DNA of 64,000 bases, from the NCBI RefSeq assembly GCF_030845995.1, contig NZ_CP132719.1:2480001-2544000 (forward strand), read 5' to 3'. The stretch's first letter is position 1; the number at the start of each line of letters is the position of its first letter. The DNA is from Geothrix sp. 21YS21S-4. GTDB lineage: Bacteria > Acidobacteriota > Holophagae > Holophagales > Holophagaceae. The notes beneath the pieces were generated by a model. It worked only from the letters and a program-made list of their open reading frames with translations, was not told the origin of the DNA and searched no databases. Below, in pieces: positions 33,979 to 53,575 of the stretch. The position numbers and the translations under genes were made by a program.

Positions 33979-35673
33979 ATGGAAACACCCACGACTCCGC
34001 TCGATCGCCTCAAATGCCTGGCCGCGTCCGAAGCGGTGCCCCTGGAAGCCCTCGGCCGCGACGGCCTGGATGAGCTGCTCGCGCTGGGACTCGTCCAGAA
34101 GGACGAACGGCCGCTCCAGGCCAGCCTGGAAGGCCGGTACGAGGCCCTCCAGGAGACCCACCGCCGGATCGTGGAGGCCAAGGGCTGCGCGGATCGCCTC
34201 CAGCGGCGGCTGGCGCCGCGTTCCCGGCTGGCGGGCTTCCTTCCCCTGGGCGCCCCGGCCGCGCCCGCGCCCAATGATCCCGATGCCGTCCAGCTGGTGC
34301 GCCTGCTCGAACTGCTGAAGATCGAGGTGCGGGACGTGCGGATCCCCAAGGACGTGGTGCCCAACCTGGAGCGCATCCAGGACTACCTCCAGGTGGAGGG
34401 CCGCGAGTGCCTGGACCGCCTGGCGGAGACGGACCGCGAGATCGACCAGGTCCAGCGGGAGACGCCGCCGGGGACCCAGGTGGAGGGCGCCGGCTACTTC
34501 CGGCTCACCGCCGCCGGCGAGGCGACCCTGCCCGAGGCCCCCGAATTCGAGCTGCTGGAGACCGCCCTGCAGGCCGCCTTCGGTCCCGGTCATCGCGGCC
34601 CCAGCTTCCTGCACTTCAAGGAGGACCCCTCGGGCCTTCTCAGCCTGCTGGTGGACCGCCTCGCCGCGGGCGACCGGCCTTCGGTGGTGATCGGCGAGTA
34701 CGAGGGCCTGCTGGAGGCTTTCGAGCGGCTGCCGATGTTCGCGGACAGCCCCGCCCTCCGCGCGAAGATCGCCTTCCTGGTGCGCCTGATGCGGACCTCC
34801 CGGGAGGACCCCAAGCGCGCCTACCTGTGGTGCAACCGGGACCGCATGAACCTCCTCCTCACCCGGATGCAGGGGGTGCTGCCGCCCACCGTGGCGGCCT
34901 CGGGCTGGCGCTGGCCCTACGCCGCGGACATCTTCCTGGTGGACGGCGGGCTGATGGGCGACGAGAGCGTGGTGGAACCGCGGATCCGCCTGTTCGAGGC
35001 CGTCCACCGCATCCAGGCCGACTTGCTCCAGGACGTCCGCATCCGGGACGGCCAGTTCTTCCGCCTGGCGCTGGTCCTGGCCCACGCAGCGCGGCTACGC
35101 AATTTCTCGCCGGGCATCCTGATGGACCGCTTTGTCCGCCAGGCGCTCGAAGCGGCGATGGAAGCGGCTCAGGCCGCCCCCTACGACCTGGGCGACCGCG
35201 GCACCGCCCTGCTGTTCGGAACCCATCTGGCCCACGCGGCGGGCTTCTCCAAGGCCCGGCTGCAGGGACCCATGCAGGCCTTCGCCGCGCTCCACGCCCG
35301 GCTGGGCGACGGCGATCCCGCTCTGCGCGTCTCGGTCCAGGTCCTGCTCCACGCCTTCGCCACCCTGGACCGCCTGGAGCGGCTGGGCGCGCCCCTCACC
35401 GTGGAGGCCTACGCGGATCTGTTCGACCGCGTCCGCAAGCGCCTCCGCCACCACAAGGCCGTCGGCCGGGCCTTCAGCACCGCCCGGATCAAGGCCGGCG
35501 ACGAGGCGGCCCTGGCCTCCAACCTGTGCGCCATGGTCTGCTTCCGCGGCGTCGCCGTCCCCGAGCGGCTCCAACCCCCTCCCGACGTGGGCCTGGCGGG
35601 GCTCTATGAAGGCCGCGCCACCGGACGTCCGCCCCTTCTGGGCTCGCCCTTCGGGACGCTGCTGCTGGTGTAG
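33979..35673 (+). CDS. Uncharacterised 564-aa protein
   Basis: I do not recognise a family. The protein is soluble, has no signal peptide, and is rich in Leu, Arg, Asp and Ala. The first 150 residues contain likely helical or coiled-coil segments (ASLEGRYEALQETHRRIVEA; a DRLAETDREIDQVQRE stretch). The middle has hydrophobic strands (DRPSVVIGEYEGLLEAF, YAADIFLVDGGLMGD) that could form an alpha/beta core, and the C terminus is helical. The upstream 250 bp hold GC-rich dyads but no gene. Codon use matches the neighbours, so there is no sign of recent transfer. Confidence 0.75.
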   Translation: METPTTPLDRLKCLAASEAVPLEALGRDGLDELLALGLVQKDERPLQASLEGRYEALQETHRRIVEAKGCADRLQRRLAPRSRLAGFLPLGAPAAPAPNDPDAVQLVRLLELLKIEVRDVRIPKDVVPNLERIQDYLQVEGRECLDRLAETDREIDQVQRETPPGTQVEGAGYFRLTAAGEATLPEAPEFELLETALQAAFGPGHRGPSFLHFKEDPSGLLSLLVDRLAAGDRPSVVIGEYEGLLEAFERLPMFADSPALRAKIAFLVRLMRTSREDPKRAYLWCNRDRMNLLLTRMQGVLPPTVAASGWRWPYAADIFLVDGGLMGDESVVEPRIRLFEAVHRIQADLLQDVRIRDGQFFRLALVLAHAARLRNFSPGILMDRFVRQALEAAMEAAQAAPYDLGDRGTALLFGTHLAHAAGFSKARLQGPMQAFAALHARLGDGDPALRVSVQVLLHAFATLDRLERLGAPLTVEAYADLFDRVRKRLRHHKAVGRAFSTARIKAGDEAALASNLCAMVCFRGVAVPERLQPPPDVGLAGLYEGRATGRPPLLGSPFGTLLLV

Positions 35674-35686
35674 GGCCTCGTGCCCC

Positions 35687-35921
35687 TTTGCATTCAAAGA
35701 ATAAGGATCACCGCCAAGAACACCAAGAAAGGCAAAAACCCTGTCTTTATGCAGTTCTTGGCATCTGCGCGGTGAGAAAAGGTTGGGTCTTGATCGCCTC
35801 ATACCAATGTGCAATCAAGATCCAAAACTTTCTTTTCACCACCAAGGCACCAAGAAAAGCTCCACTCACTGTGGACGCGGTTCTTGGTGTCTTGGTGGTA
35901 ATCCTTATCTTTTGAATGCAA
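35687..35921. mobile_element. MITE-like composite element with terminal inverted repeats (repeat copy D)
   Basis: A non-coding block of about 235 bp bounded by TTTGCATTCAAAGAATAAGG on the left and its imperfect complement (CCTTATCTTTTGAATGCAA) on the right. Inside are two head-to-head CACCRCCAAGNNACCAAGAA palindromes (35708-35775 and 35835-35901). It fills the gap between the 564-aa gene and the convergent PlsC-like gene. No reading frame of note is inside, so any mobility would need a transposase in trans. Confidence 0.7.
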
Positions 35922-35927
35922 GCGGCA

Positions 35928-36815
35928 TCACGCCTCGGCCGGGTTCCGCTGGAGCAGGATCTCGCCGATGCGCCGGTCCTTCTCCGTCCAGATCTCGTGC
36001 AGCCATTCCTGCACCCGGGCCCGGAAGGCGGGATCGCCTTCGTAGTCGCCGTCCAGCAGGTCCCGGGGGATCTCCCGCTCGCGGACCCGCACCACCACCT
36101 GCTTCATCTTGCCGGAGAGCAGGTCCCAGAAGCTGGGTACGCCCTCGGGGTAGACGATGGTCACGTCCAGCAGGGCGTCGAAGCGCTCGCCCATGGCGGA
36201 CAGGGCCGCGGCCATCCCGCCGGCCTTGGGCTTCAGGAGGTGGCGGTAGGGGGAATGCTGGGCCGCGTGCTTGGCGCGGCTGAACCGCGTGCCTTCCAGG
36301 AAGTTCATGACCGACGTGGGGATCTGGCGGAACTTGGCGCAGGCCTTCCGCGCCGTGGCGAGGTCCTTCGCCCGGCTGCCGCTGCGGCGGCGCATGAACG
36401 GGAAGTCCAGCGCCCACCACGCCAGTCCCATGACCGGCACGTACAACAGCTGGCGCTTCAGGAAGAACTTCAGGAACGGCACCTTCCGGTGGAACACCTT
36501 CTGCAGCACCAGGATGTCCACCCAGCTCTGGTGGTTGCTGCTGACCAGGTACCAGCCCTTCCGCCGCAGTCCCTCCAGCCCCTTCACGTCCCAGCGGATC
36601 CGCTGGACCAGCGCCATCCACGCGCCGTTCACGGCGATCCAGCCCTCCGCCAAGCCGGTGAGCAGGCGGTCCGTGCCACGTCGCACCGCCCCGAAGGGCA
36701 GGGCCAGCTTCACCAGCGCGACGGGGATCATGCCCGAGAAGAACGTGATCGCATTGGCCGCCAGCACGGAACTGGCGAGACTGCCCTTGAGGGTGGACCA
36801 GAGACGGCGCAGCAT
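35928..36815 (-). CDS. PlsC/YihG-type 1-acyl-glycerol-3-phosphate acyltransferase
   Basis: A 295-aa membrane-bound acyltransferase. It has N-terminal hydrophobic helices (LAANAITFFSGMIPVALVKL), the HX4D catalytic motif in SSNHQSWVDILVL near residue 90, and the acceptor motif NFLEGTRFS near residue 155. Overall arrangement fits the YihG/YihG-like branch. ATG at 36815 is preferred to a much longer GC-driven extension. It likely converts lysophosphatidate to phosphatidate, or acts on a related lysophospholipid. Confidence 0.9.
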   Translation of the reverse strand: MLRRLWSTLKGSLASSVLAANAITFFSGMIPVALVKLALPFGAVRRGTDRLLTGLAEGWIAVNGAWMALVQRIRWDVKGLEGLRRKGWYLVSSNHQSWVDILVLQKVFHRKVPFLKFFLKRQLLYVPVMGLAWWALDFPFMRRRSGSRAKDLATARKACAKFRQIPTSVMNFLEGTRFSRAKHAAQHSPYRHLLKPKAGGMAAALSAMGERFDALLDVTIVYPEGVPSFWDLLSGKMKQVVVRVREREIPRDLLDGDYEGDPAFRARVQEWLHEIWTEKDRRIGEILLQRNPAEA

Positions 36816-36882
36816 GGGGACCCCGCTGGGCCGGCACGCGGGGGCCCAAGTCCTTAGAGTATCGGCGGAAGAAGCCCGTTCC

Positions 36883-37254
36883 CTAATCCCAGCCCAGCTC
36901 CTCCAGCCGGTCCTCGCCGATCCCGAAGTGGTGGGCGATCTCGTGGATGACCGTCGTGGCGATCTCGTCGCGCAGTTCCGCCTCGTCCAGGCCATCCTCC
37001 AGCAGCGGCCCCCGGTAGAGGGTGATCCGCGGCGGCAGTTCCCCCGACAGCGGCGGCCCCTCCGTCAGCGCCCGGCCCGAGTACAGCCCGTAGAGCGTCT
37101 CGTCCTCCGGCACCCCCAGCTCGTCCAGCAGCGCGTCCGATGCCCAGTCCTCGATGACCACCGGCACCCCTTCGAGGTAGGGCCGGAACTCCTCCGGGAC
37201 GAGCCCCAGCGCCTCGTCCACCAGGCGCTGGAAATGGAGGTCGGACATGCGCAT
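36883..37254 (-). CDS. Minimal zinc metallopeptidase (zincin-like, DUF1025-type)
   Basis: A 123-aa protein with HEIAHHFGIGEDRLEELGW at the C terminus. It contains the HExxH zinc motif and a downstream acidic residue of the small metallopeptidase family 1. Known structures of this family are minimal zincins whose proteolytic role is uncertain. The first ATG (37254) has AAGGAG about 12 nt upstream; an ATG two codons later is also possible. It lies directly beside the integron remnant. Confidence 0.85.
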   Translation of the reverse strand: MRMSDLHFQRLVDEALGLVPEEFRPYLEGVPVVIEDWASDALLDELGVPEDETLYGLYSGRALTEGPPLSGELPPRITLYRGPLLEDGLDEAELRDEIATTVIHEIAHHFGIGEDRLEELGWD

Positions 37255-37423: not shown

Positions 37424-37585
37424 TTAGGACCTCCCTCTCCTTGGGGGATGCCGCTTGCCCTGGAAGAGGATGAACCGCCGTACCCAGGCGACACAGACAT
37501 CCGCCGTCCGCCGGCGGTAATGCCGGACCCGTAGGCTCTCCCGCAACTGGTCCAGGGGTCTCGGGGCCTGCGCCCTTCCTTCCAC
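37424..37585 (-). pseudogene. intI: Relic of integron integrase IntI (N-terminal fragment)
   Basis: On the minus strand the frame from GTG (37583-37585) to TAA (37424-37426) encodes a 53-residue fragment. It includes LDQLRESLRVRHY followed by CVAWVRRFILFQGKRHP. This closely matches the N-terminal core-binding domain of integron integrases (typical pattern LDQVREAIRxxHYSxRTExxYVxWIRRFILFHGKRHP). The rest of the protein, including the catalytic RHRY residues, is missing. A single-base frameshift may let a few more decayed codons continue to about 37377. It points away from the cassette array, as in a normal integron. It cannot make an active recombinase. Confidence 0.82.
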
Positions 37586-37838
37586 GATCCGCCTTTCGCC
37601 CGTCTACCTACTCGCCTCGAGCATGGGTTCCGCTCCAATCGACCGAGTTCGCCTATCGCGCTAAAATTCGGCACAGTCAATAAGCAGTACAGGACGAATG
37701 CCCTTCAATTTATCGTCTTTTTTTCGTTTGTCAAAGTTGCCAAATCGGTTCGCCCATCCTACCCGCAGCGAACCCCGTCCCTCCCTCCGGTCCTACGAAC
37801 TAGACGAACCAACCGCCCCCCAATTCCTCACCACCCCA

Positions 37839-37851
37839 TACAAAGTTAGGC
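37839..37851 (+). other. attI: attI-like primary recombination site
   Basis: TACAAAGTTAGGC ends in the core GTTAGGC (37845-37851). It shares ACAAAGTTAGGC with the class 1 attI1 junction as I remember it. It lies 260 bp from the intI relic start, the expected spacing, and no attC-type left half precedes it. The 37586-37838 spacer holds no gene; it is likely the old promoter region. Confidence 0.6.
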
Positions 37852-37874
37852 CTCACTTTTTCTCGAGGTGCCCA

Positions 37875-38060
37875 ATGCACAACATCGTTTGTTATTCATG
37901 CCACTCTGTCCAATTTTGCGAAGAACTGCCGGAAGTCTGCTCTAAATGTAAGGCGAAGAATATAGAAGCTATCAGCAACAAAAGGCTAGATGAGGGATTC
38001 AAAAGTGGAGCTTTCTATTCCCTAGATACGACTGGAAAGAGGATTAAATATAAACCTTAA
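37875..38060 (+). CDS. Cassette 1, first gene: small zinc-ribbon protein
   Basis: A 61-aa protein with CYSC (residues 6-9) and CSKC (residues 22-25), a C-x2-C pair typical of a zinc ribbon, followed by a basic tail. The start at ATG 37875 has GAGGTG 5 nt upstream; an in-frame extension to 37698 would run through the attI-like site and is rejected. It is visibly AT-rich compared with the flanking chromosome. No family is recognised. It shares its cassette (37846-38673) with the next gene. Confidence 0.6.
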   Translation: MHNIVCYSCHSVQFCEELPEVCSKCKAKNIEAISNKRLDEGFKSGAFYSLDTTGKRIKYKP

Positions 38061-38122
38061 TTAATCAATAAACTGATCCAATTTTTAAATTAGACCGTCT
38101 CTCAAAAAACCAGGAGGAATCG

Positions 38123-38530
38123 ATGATCAAGAAAATCATTATCGCAGTTCTTGGTTTATCACTTATAGGTTGCATGGGACCAAGTCTTGAAGAAAGAAGA
38201 AAACAATTTGGAGAAGTAATGGATTATTGGATCGGAGCAGACATTAATAGATATATACACTCAATGGGCTATCCATCAGACACTAGAGATCTGCCGAATG
38301 GCAACAAACTCTATATTTTTCAGCAGGCATCTACCAGAAGGACGCCTGTTTACATTTCACCTACAACTACAACTATTACTCCGCTTTACGGAGGTGGAGC
38401 GACTGCCACGACCACAGGCGGCCATATCTATGGTGGCAATATGGTTACCGATTCATGCACTAAATACATTGAAACGGATCCCTCTGGTAAAATTGTTTAT
38501 TGGCGTGCAGAAGGCAATAATTGTTACTAG
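38123..38530 (+). CDS. Cassette 1, second gene: lipoprotein
   Basis: A 135-aa lipoprotein with signal peptide and lipobox LIGC (cleavage before Cys 17). The mature part has a charged segment, a Thr/Gly-rich stretch and paired Cys residues near the end (SCTKYIE, GNNCY). A strong AGGAGGAA ribosome binding site lies 4 nt upstream. It is AT-rich. The body (GADINRYIHSMGYPSD... PNGNKLYIF) resembles small SmpA/OmlA-like or uncharacterised lipoproteins, but no firm family is assigned. Confidence 0.75.
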   Translation: MIKKIIIAVLGLSLIGCMGPSLEERRKQFGEVMDYWIGADINRYIHSMGYPSDTRDLPNGNKLYIFQQASTRRTPVYISPTTTTITPLYGGGATATTTGGHIYGGNMVTDSCTKYIETDPSGKIVYWRAEGNNCY

Positions 38531-38553
38531 CGCTTTCTTCCTTGATCGTGAAT

Positions 38554-38679
38554 GATCTAATCCCGCGCTCAGCTCGGACCCAACCGGCCCTGCCTTCCTC
38601 TCTCCTTCGATCCTTTCCGATTTCCATCCTCCAGCCATCGTCTAGCTGCAGTTGAGCCGGTGAGCTTCATTCGTTAGGC
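38554..38679 (+). other. attC: attC recombination site 1
   Basis: A site of about 126 bp beginning GATCTAATC (left core) with GCTCAGCTCGGACC (L-type box) and ending GAGCCGGTGAGCTTCATTC plus the core GTTAGGC (38673-38679). The ends are complementary, as expected for folding of the bottom strand. It ends cassette 1. Confidence 0.8.
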
Positions 38680-38719
38680 GCCCTTGATACTTCTGGAAGT
38701 CTCAATAAAGGAGAATCCA

Positions 38720-39370
38720 ATGGAAGTTTGGCAAGCGCTTTTGGCCGCATTTGGTGGTCAGGCAGCGCTAATTGCAGGTATGGCATTCTTTGGTAAACGA
38801 TTTTTTGATCATTTCCTAGAAAAAGCCAAATCCGAACACATTGAGTCCATCAAACTCCACAATACAAATTCAATTGAAACGCTTAAATCGTCGCTAGCGT
38901 TAACGTCTAACTACAAGAAGCACCAATTCGAACAAGTTTACAACAAACAAATGCAAGTGATTGAAATAATTTACAAAGGAATGAGGAACTCAATTAAAAA
39001 ACTGGAAATATTTACTTCAATGTTTGGAGGCGTTGATGAAGATAGAATAAATCGAGGAATGGAAGCTTTTGAAAGTTTTGAAACGATTTATAATTATTGT
39101 TTAGAAAACAGAATTTGGCTAAAAGCCGAAACAGCTGATAAAGCAGTCGAAATTTTGACTGAAATCAGAAAAAACATATTACACTTCAGATTATTATTTG
39201 TCGAAAAGGATCAACTATACTCAATGAAGGATGGCAAAAAATACCGTATTTCTGATACCTCCAAGTGGATAGAAATTTCGAATAAAATCAATAGTGATAT
39301 TGTTGCTCCACTAGAGCTACTGGAACATGATTTCCGGACAATTCTTGGCGTAATTCAAGAAAACAATTAA
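38720..39370 (+). CDS. Cassette 2 gene: single-pass membrane protein of unknown function
   Basis: A 216-aa protein with one N-terminal hydrophobic helix (ALLAAFGGQAALIAGMAFFG) followed by a charged, helical cytoplasmic domain rich in Lys, Glu and Ile. ATG 38720 follows AAGGAGA. It is strongly AT-rich, unlike the flanking chromosome. It resembles uncharacterised cassette and phage-defence-adjacent proteins with one membrane anchor, but no function can be stated. Confidence 0.75.
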   Translation: MEVWQALLAAFGGQAALIAGMAFFGKRFFDHFLEKAKSEHIESIKLHNTNSIETLKSSLALTSNYKKHQFEQVYNKQMQVIEIIYKGMRNSIKKLEIFTSMFGGVDEDRINRGMEAFESFETIYNYCLENRIWLKAETADKAVEILTEIRKNILHFRLLFVEKDQLYSMKDGKKYRISDTSKWIEISNKINSDIVAPLELLEHDFRTILGVIQENN

Positions 39371-39405
39371 TGATTATGATAAATATTTCCAGAAAACGGC
39401 CTAGC

Positions 39406-39527
39406 GTCTAAACATTCGTTCAACTCGGACCTCGGCGGCAGTGCCTTCCGCTGTCTCTTCATTCCGCTTTCTCGGCTACGCTCCTCGCCTCGGTGCAGGC
39501 GCGATCGGTTAGCTTCATCTGTTAGGC
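39406..39527 (+). other. attC: attC recombination site 2
   Basis: A site of about 122 bp beginning GTCTAAAC, with TTCAACTCGGACC and, at the right end, GATCGGTTAGCTTCATCT plus core GTTAGGC (39521-39527). The same box order as attC 1 and 3. It ends cassette 2. Confidence 0.85.
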
Positions 39528-39566
39528 CGCACAACCGTTCAACCCACTCACACGAGGAGCAATACG

Positions 39567-40034
39567 ATGACCAGCTCCATTCGCACCTGCCTCTGGTTCC
39601 GCGACGGACGAGGCCGTGAGGCCGCTGAGTTCTACTGTTCTTTGATCCCCGGCAGTCGGCTCGAAACGACCTTTTACGGCGACAATGGTTATAGTGCTTT
39701 CTCAGTAATCGACTTCTCGCTGGGCGGAGTGCCGTACCAGATCCTTGACGCTGGGCCGATGTTCACGCTGACTGAGGCGGTGTCCATTTCGGTCGCCACG
39801 GACGATCAGGCCGAGACCGATCGGCTGTGGGCGGCGTTGACCATCAATGGCGGCGAGGTCACCGCCTGCGGATGGCTGAAGGATCGTTACGGGGTGTCGT
39901 GGCAGATTTTCCCGAGGCGGCTGACAGAATTGACCACGAGTGCCGACAAGGATGTGTCTGCCAAAGCGATCGCGGCGATGATGAAACAAACGAAAATCGA
40001 CATTGCCGAAATCGAAGCAGCGGTTCGTGGCTAG
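39567..40034 (+). CDS. Cassette 3 gene: VOC-superfamily (PhnB-like) protein
   Basis: A 155-aa protein of the 3-demethylubiquinone-9 methyltransferase-like/PhnB group of the VOC fold. Evidence: CLWFRDGRGREAAEFYCSLIPGS at the start and CGWLKDRYGVSWQIFPRRL near the end, both typical. These proteins bind small aromatic or phosphonate-like ligands; some give antibiotic resistance, but no resistance is evident here. GAGGAG lies 7 nt upstream of the ATG. It is closer to the chromosome in base composition than cassettes 1 and 2. Confidence 0.88.
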   Translation: MTSSIRTCLWFRDGRGREAAEFYCSLIPGSRLETTFYGDNGYSAFSVIDFSLGGVPYQILDAGPMFTLTEAVSISVATDDQAETDRLWAALTINGGEVTACGWLKDRYGVSWQIFPRRLTELTTSADKDVSAKAIAAMMKQTKIDIAEIEAAVRG

Positions 40035-40043
40035 AAACTAGCG

Positions 40044-40167
40044 GCCTCACCCTTTGCTCAACCCGGACCCCGCCTGCATTGCCTTCCGTCCTCTCTCTGC
40101 ATTTCACCATCTCGCCTCCGCTCATCGTTTCGGTCCAGGCGTGACCGATTAGCTTCCGCCGTTAGGT
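40044..40167 (+). other. attC: attC recombination site 3
   Basis: A site of about 124 bp beginning GCCTCAC, with GCTCAACCCGGACC, and ending GACCGATTAGCTTCCGCC plus core GTTAGGT (40161-40167). It ends cassette 3; the next gene starts 6 nt after the core. Confidence 0.82.
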
Positions 40168-40173
40168 GCCCCT

Positions 40174-40749
40174 ATGGATCCCATATTCACCTTGCAATGG
40201 CCTGAAGCATTCCTTGCCGATCGTTTACAAAAACTCCTCCCGAAATCGGAAGGGTTCTCTGTTCTTGTGCCCGCATCAAGGCAGGAAAAGGGGTTCGATC
40301 TAGCACTGATCAAACGTCTCCCTAATGGCAAGTCACGCACCGCCACAATCCAGATCAAGGCTTCCCGCACTTATCTTTCAAAACCCCCTAAGCGAGAATC
40401 AACCAAGCGGTTCCTCTTCGAAACCTGGTTCAACCGTTTTGATGTCCCGAAAGAGGCTGATTTCATCCTTCTTTTTGGTCTGTACCCCATGGTGGTGAAT
40501 CAAACCAAGTCTGTGAACAAAAATTGGTACCGAGACTGTACACTTCTGTTTACATTCGAAGAAATGAAGGAATTCATGGATTCATGCCGAACAGTCGGTG
40601 GCCCACCAGACCGGATGTTTGGGTTTGGATTCAACGATCACTCTGAAGTCTTCCAAACCCGCGGCGATCAGAAGCGAGGCGGAAAGGATTTTACGAGCCA
40701 TCTGCTTGAAAACCGAATTTCCCTTATCGCAGAGTGTCTCAGCACCTAA
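40174..40749 (+). CDS. Cassette 4 gene: possible PD-(D/E)XK-fold protein
   Basis: A 191-aa soluble protein. GFDLALIKRLPNGKSRTATI followed by QIKAS resembles the D...(E/Q)xK core of restriction endonuclease-like folds, the only functional hint. The rest has hydrophobic strands (ADFILLFGLYP, LLFTFEEMKEF) consistent with an alpha/beta fold. The start lies 6 nt after the attC core, and AGGTG of the core GTTAGGTG could serve as ribosome binding site. The stop overlaps the next attC (ACCTAAC). Unknown function. Confidence 0.65.
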   Translation: MDPIFTLQWPEAFLADRLQKLLPKSEGFSVLVPASRQEKGFDLALIKRLPNGKSRTATIQIKASRTYLSKPPKRESTKRFLFETWFNRFDVPKEADFILLFGLYPMVVNQTKSVNKNWYRDCTLLFTFEEMKEFMDSCRTVGGPPDRMFGFGFNDHSEVFQTRGDQKRGGKDFTSHLLENRISLIAECLST

Positions 40750-40830
40750 CCTTCCGCTCAACTCGGACTCGCCTACATTTCTTCCGTTCCGTCGCCCGGA
40801 TGAGGGAAGCGATGGTATTCCGTCCCCCTC
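40744..40830 (+). other. attC: attC recombination site 4, truncated by IS3 element
   Basis: The left half (ACCTAAC, then GCTCAACTCGGACTCGCC) matches the other attC sites, but no right half with a GTTRRRY core is found before or after the insertion element. The array is therefore cut off here. Confidence 0.7.
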
Positions 40831-40975
40831 TGAGGTTGGACAGGCAATAAGGAGCCGAGAAGGATGATATCCAGCCGCCAGGGTGCGAAGCGATGGGAGG
40901 CCGTAGGCCGACCGAAGCGAAGCACCCTGGCGCGGCGGCTCCGGAGGGCTCAGGTCCTTCACCAGGAGAACCCCT

Positions 40976-41311
40976 ATGTCCCAAACCCAACCCCTCCCCG
41001 AAGGGAATATCCAGCGATGGACGGCCAAAAGGAAGGCCGCCGTCGTTCTGGACCTGATCAAGGGAAAGATCACGGCCGCCGATGCCGCCCGCCAGCACGG
41101 GCTGACCGTGGCCGAGTTGGAGCAGTGGAAGGACGACTTCCTCAGCCAGGGCACGGAGGCCCTGCGCACCCACCCACGGGACCGCGAGGCCCAGTGGGAG
41201 GCCGAGAAGCAGCGCCTGCAAGCCAAGGTCGGCGAGCTGGCGCTGGAGGTGGACATCCTAAAAAAAGCGCATCGCATTCTCGGCAAGGACTTGCCGGAAG
41301 GGATCTCGTGA
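40976..41311 (+). CDS. IS3-family transposase OrfA
   Basis: A 111-aa protein with an N-terminal helix-turn-helix (AAVVLDLIKGKITAADAARQ HGLTVAELEQW region) and a C-terminal leucine-zipper-like segment (KQRLQAKVGELALEVDILKK). It binds the IS ends. The A7 run at 41260-41266 lies in phase for a -1 shift into orfB. Confidence 0.9.
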   Translation: MSQTQPLPEGNIQRWTAKRKAAVVLDLIKGKITAADAARQHGLTVAELEQWKDDFLSQGTEALRTHPRDREAQWEAEKQRLQAKVGELALEVDILKKAHRILGKDLPEGIS

Positions 41312-42159
41312 ATGCGGTGCGGTGCGATGTGCTGGAGGCGGGGATGGAGATCCCGATGACTCGCCTCTGCCGGGTGCTCGGTGTGCCGCGCTCCACGGTC
41401 TACCACCAGCCCAAGGTGGAGAAGCTGCATCGCCCGGTGGACGAGGCCCTGGCCAGGACCGTCCACGAGATCATCCAGGCCCACCCGACCTTCGGCATCC
41501 GGCGGGTATGGGCCTGGTTGAGGTATCGCCTGGGTCAGTCCACCAATCGCAAGAAGATCCACCGCCTCATGCGGATCAAGGGCTGGAGCTGCCGCCAGCG
41601 GGCCGTGGGGAAGCGCCCAAGGGTGCCGGGGTCGAAATCCATTGCCCCGTTCCCCAACCAGCGCTGGTCCACGGACATCGCCCTGGTGGAATGCGGGGTT
41701 GATGGTTGGTGCGCGTTCGTGCCCGTCCTGGACTGCTGCACCCGCGAAGTCCTGGGCTGGAGCCTGGATCGAACGGCCAGGGCCCAGAATGCGGAACGCG
41801 CTCTGGAAGAAGCCCTGATCCACCGGTTCGGATGGACCCACGGCGCACCGCCGGGCCTCGCCCTCCGCCATGACAATGGCCTCGTGTTCGGCTCCCGGGC
41901 CTACCGGGCTCTGGTCAAGGACTACGGCCTGAAGCAGGAATACATCACGCCCTATACCCCCGAGCAGAACGGCTTGTGCGAGCGGTTCATCCGTTCGTTC
42001 AAGGAAGAGTGCGCCTGGCTCCACCGGTTCCAGGACATCCGCGAAGCCCGCGCCGTCATCGCCCGATACATCGACCACTTCAACACCCAGAGGCCCCACC
42101 AGGCCTTGGCCTACCGGACGCCCCGAGAGGCGTTCCTCAACCCCCAACCCGCTGCCTGA
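41308..42159 (+). CDS. IS3-family transposase OrfB (DDE catalytic part)
   Basis: From GTG 41308, overlapping the orfA stop (GTGA), 283 aa with an HTH_21-like segment and an rve DDE integrase core: Asp in WSTDIALVE, Asp in LRHDNGLVF, Glu in TPEQNGLCERFIRSFKEE. The frame continues upstream so that a -1 shift at the A7 run gives an OrfAB fusion, the usual active IS3 transposase. All three catalytic residues are present. Confidence 0.93.
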   Translation: MNAVRCDVLEAGMEIPMTRLCRVLGVPRSTVYHQPKVEKLHRPVDEALARTVHEIIQAHPTFGIRRVWAWLRYRLGQSTNRKKIHRLMRIKGWSCRQRAVGKRPRVPGSKSIAPFPNQRWSTDIALVECGVDGWCAFVPVLDCCTREVLGWSLDRTARAQNAERALEEALIHRFGWTHGAPPGLALRHDNGLVFGSRAYRALVKDYGLKQEYITPYTPEQNGLCERFIRSFKEECAWLHRFQDIREARAVIARYIDHFNTQRPHQALAYRTPREAFLNPQPAA

Positions 42160-42211
42160 TAACCCTCAAACTTGTCCAACAATCAGGGGAGCACTACAAT
42201 GGCGCAGATCC

Positions 42212-43023: not shown

Positions 43024-43509
43024 ATGGACATCCGACACGACGACCTCCTCGGTCCCGAGATCCGCGCATTGCTCGAAGTGCACCTCCGGGACATGCGGAG
43101 CATCTCTCCGCCGGGGAGCGTTCACGCCCTCGATCTTGCGGCGCTCCGCGGGCCGGACATCACGTTCTGGACCGCGTGGTCCGGCCCCGACCTGCTGGGA
43201 TGCGGGGCGCTAAAGGAACTGGATGCCCGCCACGGGGAGATCAAGTCCATGAGGACCGTCGAGGCCCACCGCGGGAAGGGCGTGGCCCAAGCGCTGCTCC
43301 GCCAGATCCTGCGCGAGGCCGAAAGCCGGGGCTACCTGCGCCTCAGCCTGGAGACCGGCTCCCAGGCCGCTTTCGAACCGGCGCGCCGGTTGTACGCAGG
43401 CTTCGGATTCGCGTTCTGCCCTCCGTTCGGAAGTTACGGCAAGGATCCCAACAGCGTCTTCATGACCCGCCACCTGGAGGGCATTCCAGGTCCGGAGAAC
43501 CGTCCATGA
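43024..43509 (+). CDS. GNAT-family N-acetyltransferase
   Basis: A 161-aa acetyl-CoA-dependent acetyltransferase. Motif A MRTVEAHRGKGVAQALLRQILREA matches the acetyl-CoA P-loop (R-x-x-G-x-G/A). The body (ADIRHDDLLGPEIRALLEVHLRDM-like start) and TGSQAAFEPARRLYAGFGFAFC end fit the PA2578/RimI-like group. It overlaps the next gene by ATGA, so the two are translationally coupled. Confidence 0.93.
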   Translation: MDIRHDDLLGPEIRALLEVHLRDMRSISPPGSVHALDLAALRGPDITFWTAWSGPDLLGCGALKELDARHGEIKSMRTVEAHRGKGVAQALLRQILREAESRGYLRLSLETGSQAAFEPARRLYAGFGFAFCPPFGSYGKDPNSVFMTRHLEGIPGPENRP

Positions 43510-53381: not shown

Positions 53382-53446
53382 GGGGCACCTCCATGAAGGA
53401 CCGGGACGAAGCGGAAGACCCACCTCATCGACCCGGAGCGGGTTGA

Positions 53447-53517
53447 GGTGAGCGCCGTTCAGAAAGGGGGCCGAGCCTGGGATTTTCCGCGCGGAAATCC
53501 TGCAGCGCTCCTCGGAC
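53447..53517 (-). promoter_or_regulatory. S-adenosylhomocysteine (SAH) riboswitch
   Basis: On the minus strand, 65 nt upstream of ahcY, the conserved elements appear in order: CCGAGGAGCGCTGC, a hairpin (GATTTCC / GGAAAATC), CCAGGCTCGG and AACGGCGCTCACC. CCGAG pairs with CTCGG and GAGCGCTG with the CGGCGCTC strand of the pseudoknot, as in the known SAH aptamer. It should turn ahcY on when SAH builds up. Very strong match by pattern. Confidence 0.93.
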
Positions 53518-53575
53518 TTTTCCAGGGTAATCGGTTCTGTAGAGACGCGGAAAAGATTTGGGATCAGGTTTTTAA

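Follow-up and report, generated by a model that had tools for sequence, protein, structure and literature searches.

Three complete repeats in the window (the whole 64-kb stretch of Geothrix DNA analysed here) are attC sites of an integron, and they belong to a single family whose members are typically 126 bp long. The array that these sites delimit is very probably the remnant of an ancestral sedentary chromosomal integron of Geothrix, the integrase gene of which is almost entirely deleted and the sites of which are decaying. The locus is assigned to this ancestral integron because an integrase (intI) stub, an attI region and the neighbouring genes on the left match the intact integrons of about 20 relatives.

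Three complete attC sites and one truncated site

Two covariance models of the repeats were built. Model R1 was made from seven sites of this genome, the three of the window among them, and what it matched there was for that reason not counted as evidence; model R2, made from 99 sites of two relatives with the window sites left out, was used in its place. The only significant R2 matches in the 64-kb window were site A (38553-38679, 127 nt; 67.3 bits, E 2e-18), site B (39404-39527, 124 nt; 88.7 bits, E 5e-25) and site C (40042-40167, 126 nt; 110.7 bits, E 7e-32), all on the plus strand, the fourth-ranked match having an E value of 0.16. The three complete sites reported by the first-pass annotation were therefore recovered by a model that knew relatives' sites only. 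A further site, D, on the same strand (40742 to ~40790), is represented by its left half alone, being truncated before an insertion sequence at 40816-42199. Another motif match, at genome position 2,875,491, was dropped as a chance occurrence, as it had no partner box nearby.

The outer boxes of the window sites are those of attC, that is, R'' (RYYYAAC) and R' (GTTRRRY) in inverse repetition, with R'' degenerate in A, B and C. R' reads GTTAGGC/T in all three, and each R'' pairs with the R' of its own site at five of seven positions. R'' is intact (ACCTAAC) in the truncated site D, and site C as a whole is nearly intact. The extrahelical G and T are retained in A, B and C. The right box that the first-pass annotation had ascribed to all three sites is correct for site B, but other sequence stands in the remaining two: GCCGGTGAGCTTCATTC-GTTAGGC in site A and GACCGATTAGCTTCCGCC-GTTAGGT in site C. 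Likewise, the three sites do form a family, but to call their length and boxes "nearly constant", as had been done, is slightly too strong, the left halves being 69-75% identical in pairwise comparison.

Evidence from the sites of relatives

The identification of the repeats as attC is borne out by covariation in the stems, by extrahelical bases, by matching of R'' and R' within cassettes, and by the attI region and intI stub that adjoin the array. Pairing in the R and L stems reached 95.8% of cells across the 99 sites from relatives, compared with 21-45% when the partners were slid, a statistic that leans toward the attC structure because the alignment had been fitted to it. In ten stem pairs both partners had changed, and the observed values were not reached in any of 500 shuffles. 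At least six of the seven R pairs were formed in 265 of 275 relatives' sites, and the bottom strand gave a more stable fold than the top strand in 147 of 150 high-scoring sites. Three unpaired bases on the R''-L'' arm were conserved as well, the G being found in 90, the A in 93 and the T in 95 of the 99 sites, with the G and the T eight columns apart. An attC site is described as carrying two or three extrahelical bases on this arm, with a G in the L'' box and a T located 6-8 nt from it (PMC2727003), and the spacing in the relatives' sites agrees with that description.

The variable outer base of R'' provided a separate line of evidence. Among 260 pairs of neighbouring sites, this base matched the R' of the same cassette at a frequency of 0.888, as against 0.749 under permutation (0/5000), while its match to the R' of the same site was not significant (p 0.69). 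Agreement within the cassette is to be expected, because circular cassettes join at G|TT and leave exactly such a trace. In addition, R2 matched proteobacterial integrons at 60 places beside intI, more weakly (23-45 bits) and always on the expected strand; scores in Holophagaceae loci were 72-158 bits. A short form of the site, seen as 68-nt matches of 42-56 bits, occurs among the 126-nt sites of relatives (L170:1662-11597 and L169:9303-9370).

The window repeats could in principle belong to some other family, REP- or MITE-like, that follows genes by chance, and two observations would suit such an origin: taken by themselves, the window sites fold no better than shuffled sequence, and no attC-like match to them was found in Rfam. 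This explanation has almost no probability left, as it is already contradicted by the attI region and intI stub next to the window sites, by the arrays of tens of sites that relatives carry next to an intact intI, by the agreement of R' and R'' within cassettes, and by the ability of R2 to detect proteobacterial attC. We hence continue to treat the repeats as attC sites.

Distribution of the attC family

Matches to R1 were present in 62 of 77 Holophagaceae genomes, with at least 45 matches in each of many genomes of the same genus. Among 297 genomes sampled across the phylum, six from outside Holophagaceae had a match, only one of them strong; that one is an assembly of 410 contigs (G157), and its match may reflect transfer or contamination. 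The family is thus specific to Holophagaceae, and mostly to Geothrix, so that the lineage specificity suspected in the first-pass annotation has been upheld. Among the named species that carry it are Geothrix fermentans, G. rubra, G. campi, G. fuzhouensis, G. oryzisoli, G. paludis and G. limicola. A single intact intI is present in most of the relatives that have sites. In three of these (G011, G018 and G021), additional large attC arrays (L165, L167, L169 and L170) are situated far from intI, and an attI region was not found in those stretches.

An intI stub and an attI region precede the array

To the left of the array, on the minus strand, lie a gene for a YihG-family 1-acylglycerol-3-phosphate acyltransferase (35928..36995; NF058536, 386 bits), whose true start is perhaps downstream, and a gene for a small zincin-like protein (36883..37254), in which a HEIAHHF motif was read by eye and for which no NCBIfam family matched. 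These are followed by a stub of intI on the same strand (37427..37594), comprising ~50 N-terminal codons, which matches positions 2-42 of TIGR02249 (E 7e-6) and is 58-73% identical to the N-terminus of Geothrix IntI. The remainder of the gene is deleted. While the first-pass annotation had read the array as that of an integron, which holds, the missing intI went unnoticed there. An attI region on the plus strand (37560..37851), which overlaps and follows the stub and ends CAAAGTTAGGC, matches the corresponding side of intact Geothrix integrons at 69-75% identity, with a predicted crossover G|TT at 37845/37846. In about 20 relatives, an intact intI is followed by the zincin-like gene and then the acyltransferase gene, in the same order and orientation.

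Four cassettes follow on the plus strand. Cassette 1 (37846..38673), bounded by attI and attC A, contains two open reading frames (ORFs), 37875-38060 (61 aa) and 38123-38530 (135 aa, lipoprotein-like), neither with a Pfam match. Cassette 2 (38674..39521), between attC A and B, contains one ORF (38720-39370, 216 aa), for which no family was found. The ORF of cassette 3 (39522..40161), at 39567-40034, encodes 155 aa with a vicinal-oxygen-chelate-like domain (PF06983, 3-dmu-9_3-mt; Pfam 108.7 bits). Cassette 4 (40162..40815), with an ORF of 191 aa (40174-40749) for which no family was found, ends in the truncated left half of attC D. The array terminates at the insertion sequence (40816..42199, plus strand), which has a two-frame transposase with an HTH_Tnp_1 domain. 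This element is present in four copies in the genome, each ~1.38 kb and 100% identical, and the copies define its ends; the other three are at 910,148-911,531, 2,933,314-2,934,696 and 591,155-592,537. Two of the four copies sit in attC arrays, one of which, in the array at 909-912 kb, has the insertion sequence between two attC sites.

No shared right flank could be demonstrated: of seven relatives, only one (G009) has a close homologue of the GNAT-like gene at 43024. Elsewhere in the window, an inverted repeat of 32 nt, 88% complementary (35688-35719 and 35890-35921, 170 nt apart), follows a gene that ends at 35673, and an SAH riboswitch at 53443-53519 on the minus strand exceeds the Rfam gathering score.

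The locus shares its left neighbours and its attI with the sedentary chromosomal integron of Geothrix. A complete integron has an intact intI beside attI, and only ~50 codons of intI are left here; with three complete sites and no intact intI, the locus falls within the definition of a CALIN (at least two attC sites, no integron integrase). A secondary array, arising where cassettes inserted at a site other than attI or where an array was duplicated, would never have had an integrase of its own. Such arrays do occur in relatives far from intI, for example at 1.53 Mb in G011, but we consider this origin practically untenable for the window array, since it is contradicted by the stub and by the synteny: the window has its own intI remnant and attI, placed as in the intact integrons of relatives. 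That a single chromosomal integron assembled the cassettes, as proposed in the first-pass annotation, therefore remains sound insofar as the array is syntenic with the integron of the genus; for the genome as a whole it is too simple, because there are six further places with sites and a second integrase lineage.

The history of the ancestral integron can be pictured as follows. IntI binds the folded bottom strand of attC and exchanges one strand at G|TT. By analogy with the recombination chemistry of studied integrons, the IntI of relatives with an intact intI would be expected to recognize the bottom-strand attC hairpin (the R and L stems and the extrahelical G, A and T), to cut at G|TT, and to move circular cassettes in and out beside attI. 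The sites would resemble each other because the cassettes circulated within one lineage, in which integrases and sites presumably co-evolved. In this genome, nearly all of intI has been lost by deletion, the array stops at the insertion sequence, and the attC sites that remain are drifting. The array would now be static, unless an integrase comes in trans. We infer this order of events, and the present inactivity of the array, from sequence.

Loss of the attC fold and a second integrase

The first-pass annotation made its reading depend on a stable fold of the bottom strand, which is lacking in the three window sites by themselves and present in most of the others. The attC fold was the minimum-energy structure in none of the three window sites and in 254 of 275 relatives' sites (Fisher p 6e-4, with only three sites on one side of the comparison). 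The bottom strands of the window sites had fold z values of 1.0, 0.0 and 2.1, and forcing the attC pairs cost ~12, ~17 and ~2 kcal/mol in A, B and C, respectively. Decay after loss of the integrase would best explain the missing fold. Two observations weigh against this reading. Site C lies within ~2 kcal/mol of the attC fold, and elsewhere in the same genome eight of nine attC sites fold canonically in spite of there being no visibly intact intI, so that decay has not been uniform. Apparently, the window array has lacked a functional integrase for longer, or else the cassettes elsewhere are the younger ones; the second integrase may also have been lost recently. The genome has 14 recognizable sites at seven places, compared with at least 45 in many relatives. 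Fewer cassettes after loss of a working integrase have been reported in Xanthomonas (PMC12444791) and for CALINs in general (PMC9024848), and the scarcity of cassettes seen here follows the same pattern.

The only other intI of this complete genome, at 774-775 kb, is interrupted by a frame change, for which a sequencing error might be responsible. The gene represents a second integrase lineage, being 84% identical to one IntI of the metagenome-assembled genome (MAG) MS_R2_30, which also carries a Geothrix-type IntI next to a zincin-like gene. The integron concerned (L017:5867-11005, genome ~773,866-779,004) comprises the frame-split intI and three attC sites, and has tRNA-Arg on one side and a 44-bp direct repeat of its 5' half on the other, as in an island inserted at a tRNA gene. 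If the split were an error, or were bypassed, this integrase might still mobilize the window array in trans, making the array a working annex and not a fossil. The second integron has the same attC family, its intI shows good conservation in both parts, the one frame change aside, and CALINs can be mobilized in trans (PMC12444791). We nonetheless regard continued mobilization as improbable, given that R'' is degenerate and the attC fold missing in all three complete sites of the window, and that the last attC is truncated. The decaying remnant of an ancestral integron is accordingly the reading that we retain.

Sites at tRNA genes

At another of the places with sites (L161:4641-8448, genome ~2,288,640-2,292,447), three attC sites occupy 3.7 kb between two identical 76-bp copies, each carrying tRNA-Thr, and no integrase was seen in this interval. 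At the same place in six relatives, accC, one tRNA-Thr and murJ adjoin without the 3.7-kb insert. It is conceivable, if rather unlikely, that cassette arrays of this attC family are also able to move as islands without an integrase, delimited by tRNA copies. No direct repeats of tRNA were found around the sites of L018, L160, L162 and L163. The genome G011 was rejected as a clean empty site for the tRNA-Arg island at ~776 kb, since the tRNA and a DUF2062-like neighbour are oriented differently there. A second, partial copy of attI, ending CCAAAGTTAGGC, is found near tRNA-Gly (L018:6973-8697, genome ~2,012,972-2,014,696), together with one attC and two left half-sites; no intI remnant was found in that stretch.

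Comparison with known integrons

Both taxon-specific attC families and CALINs are already known. What is gained is a chromosomal integron of Geothrix with a fixed neighbourhood, an attI and its own attC family; a search of the open-licence literature found no paper on integrons of Geothrix or Holophaga. The intact integrases and well-folding sites of relatives, set against the deleted integrase and decaying sites of this genome, also offer a natural comparison that could serve to estimate how fast attC sites decay, and a family-level attC model could trace Holophagaceae-derived cassettes in metagenomes.

The VCR of the superintegron of Vibrio cholerae is a long attC that is homogeneous over its full length, including the terminal structure. 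The window family resembles it, by description and not by alignment, in consisting of long, homogeneous sites. Ghaly et al. 2021 (PMC8352920) published chromosomal attC families specific to a taxon, including a single covariance model for Acidobacteria; those families are likewise homogeneous within one taxon and modelled by sequence plus structure, whereas the present family, compared with that model by description only, is resolved at the level of Holophagaceae and Geothrix. CALINs, which likewise have at least two attC sites and no working integrase adjacent to them, have been proposed to be degraded integrons. In the present case, the intI stub, attI and the conserved neighbours can still be recognized, and the origin of this CALIN is thereby documented and not assumed. 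A likeness in history may be drawn with Xanthomonas, where an ancestral ilvD-linked integron has lost its integrase and has fewer cassettes in some lineages (PMC12444791). There, too, a genus-wide chromosomal integron at a fixed place is degraded in some of its carriers, and CALINs occur at other places of the genome, but the integron described here belongs to another phylum, has another attC family, and occupies another locus, beside a zincin-like gene and a YihG-type acyltransferase gene.
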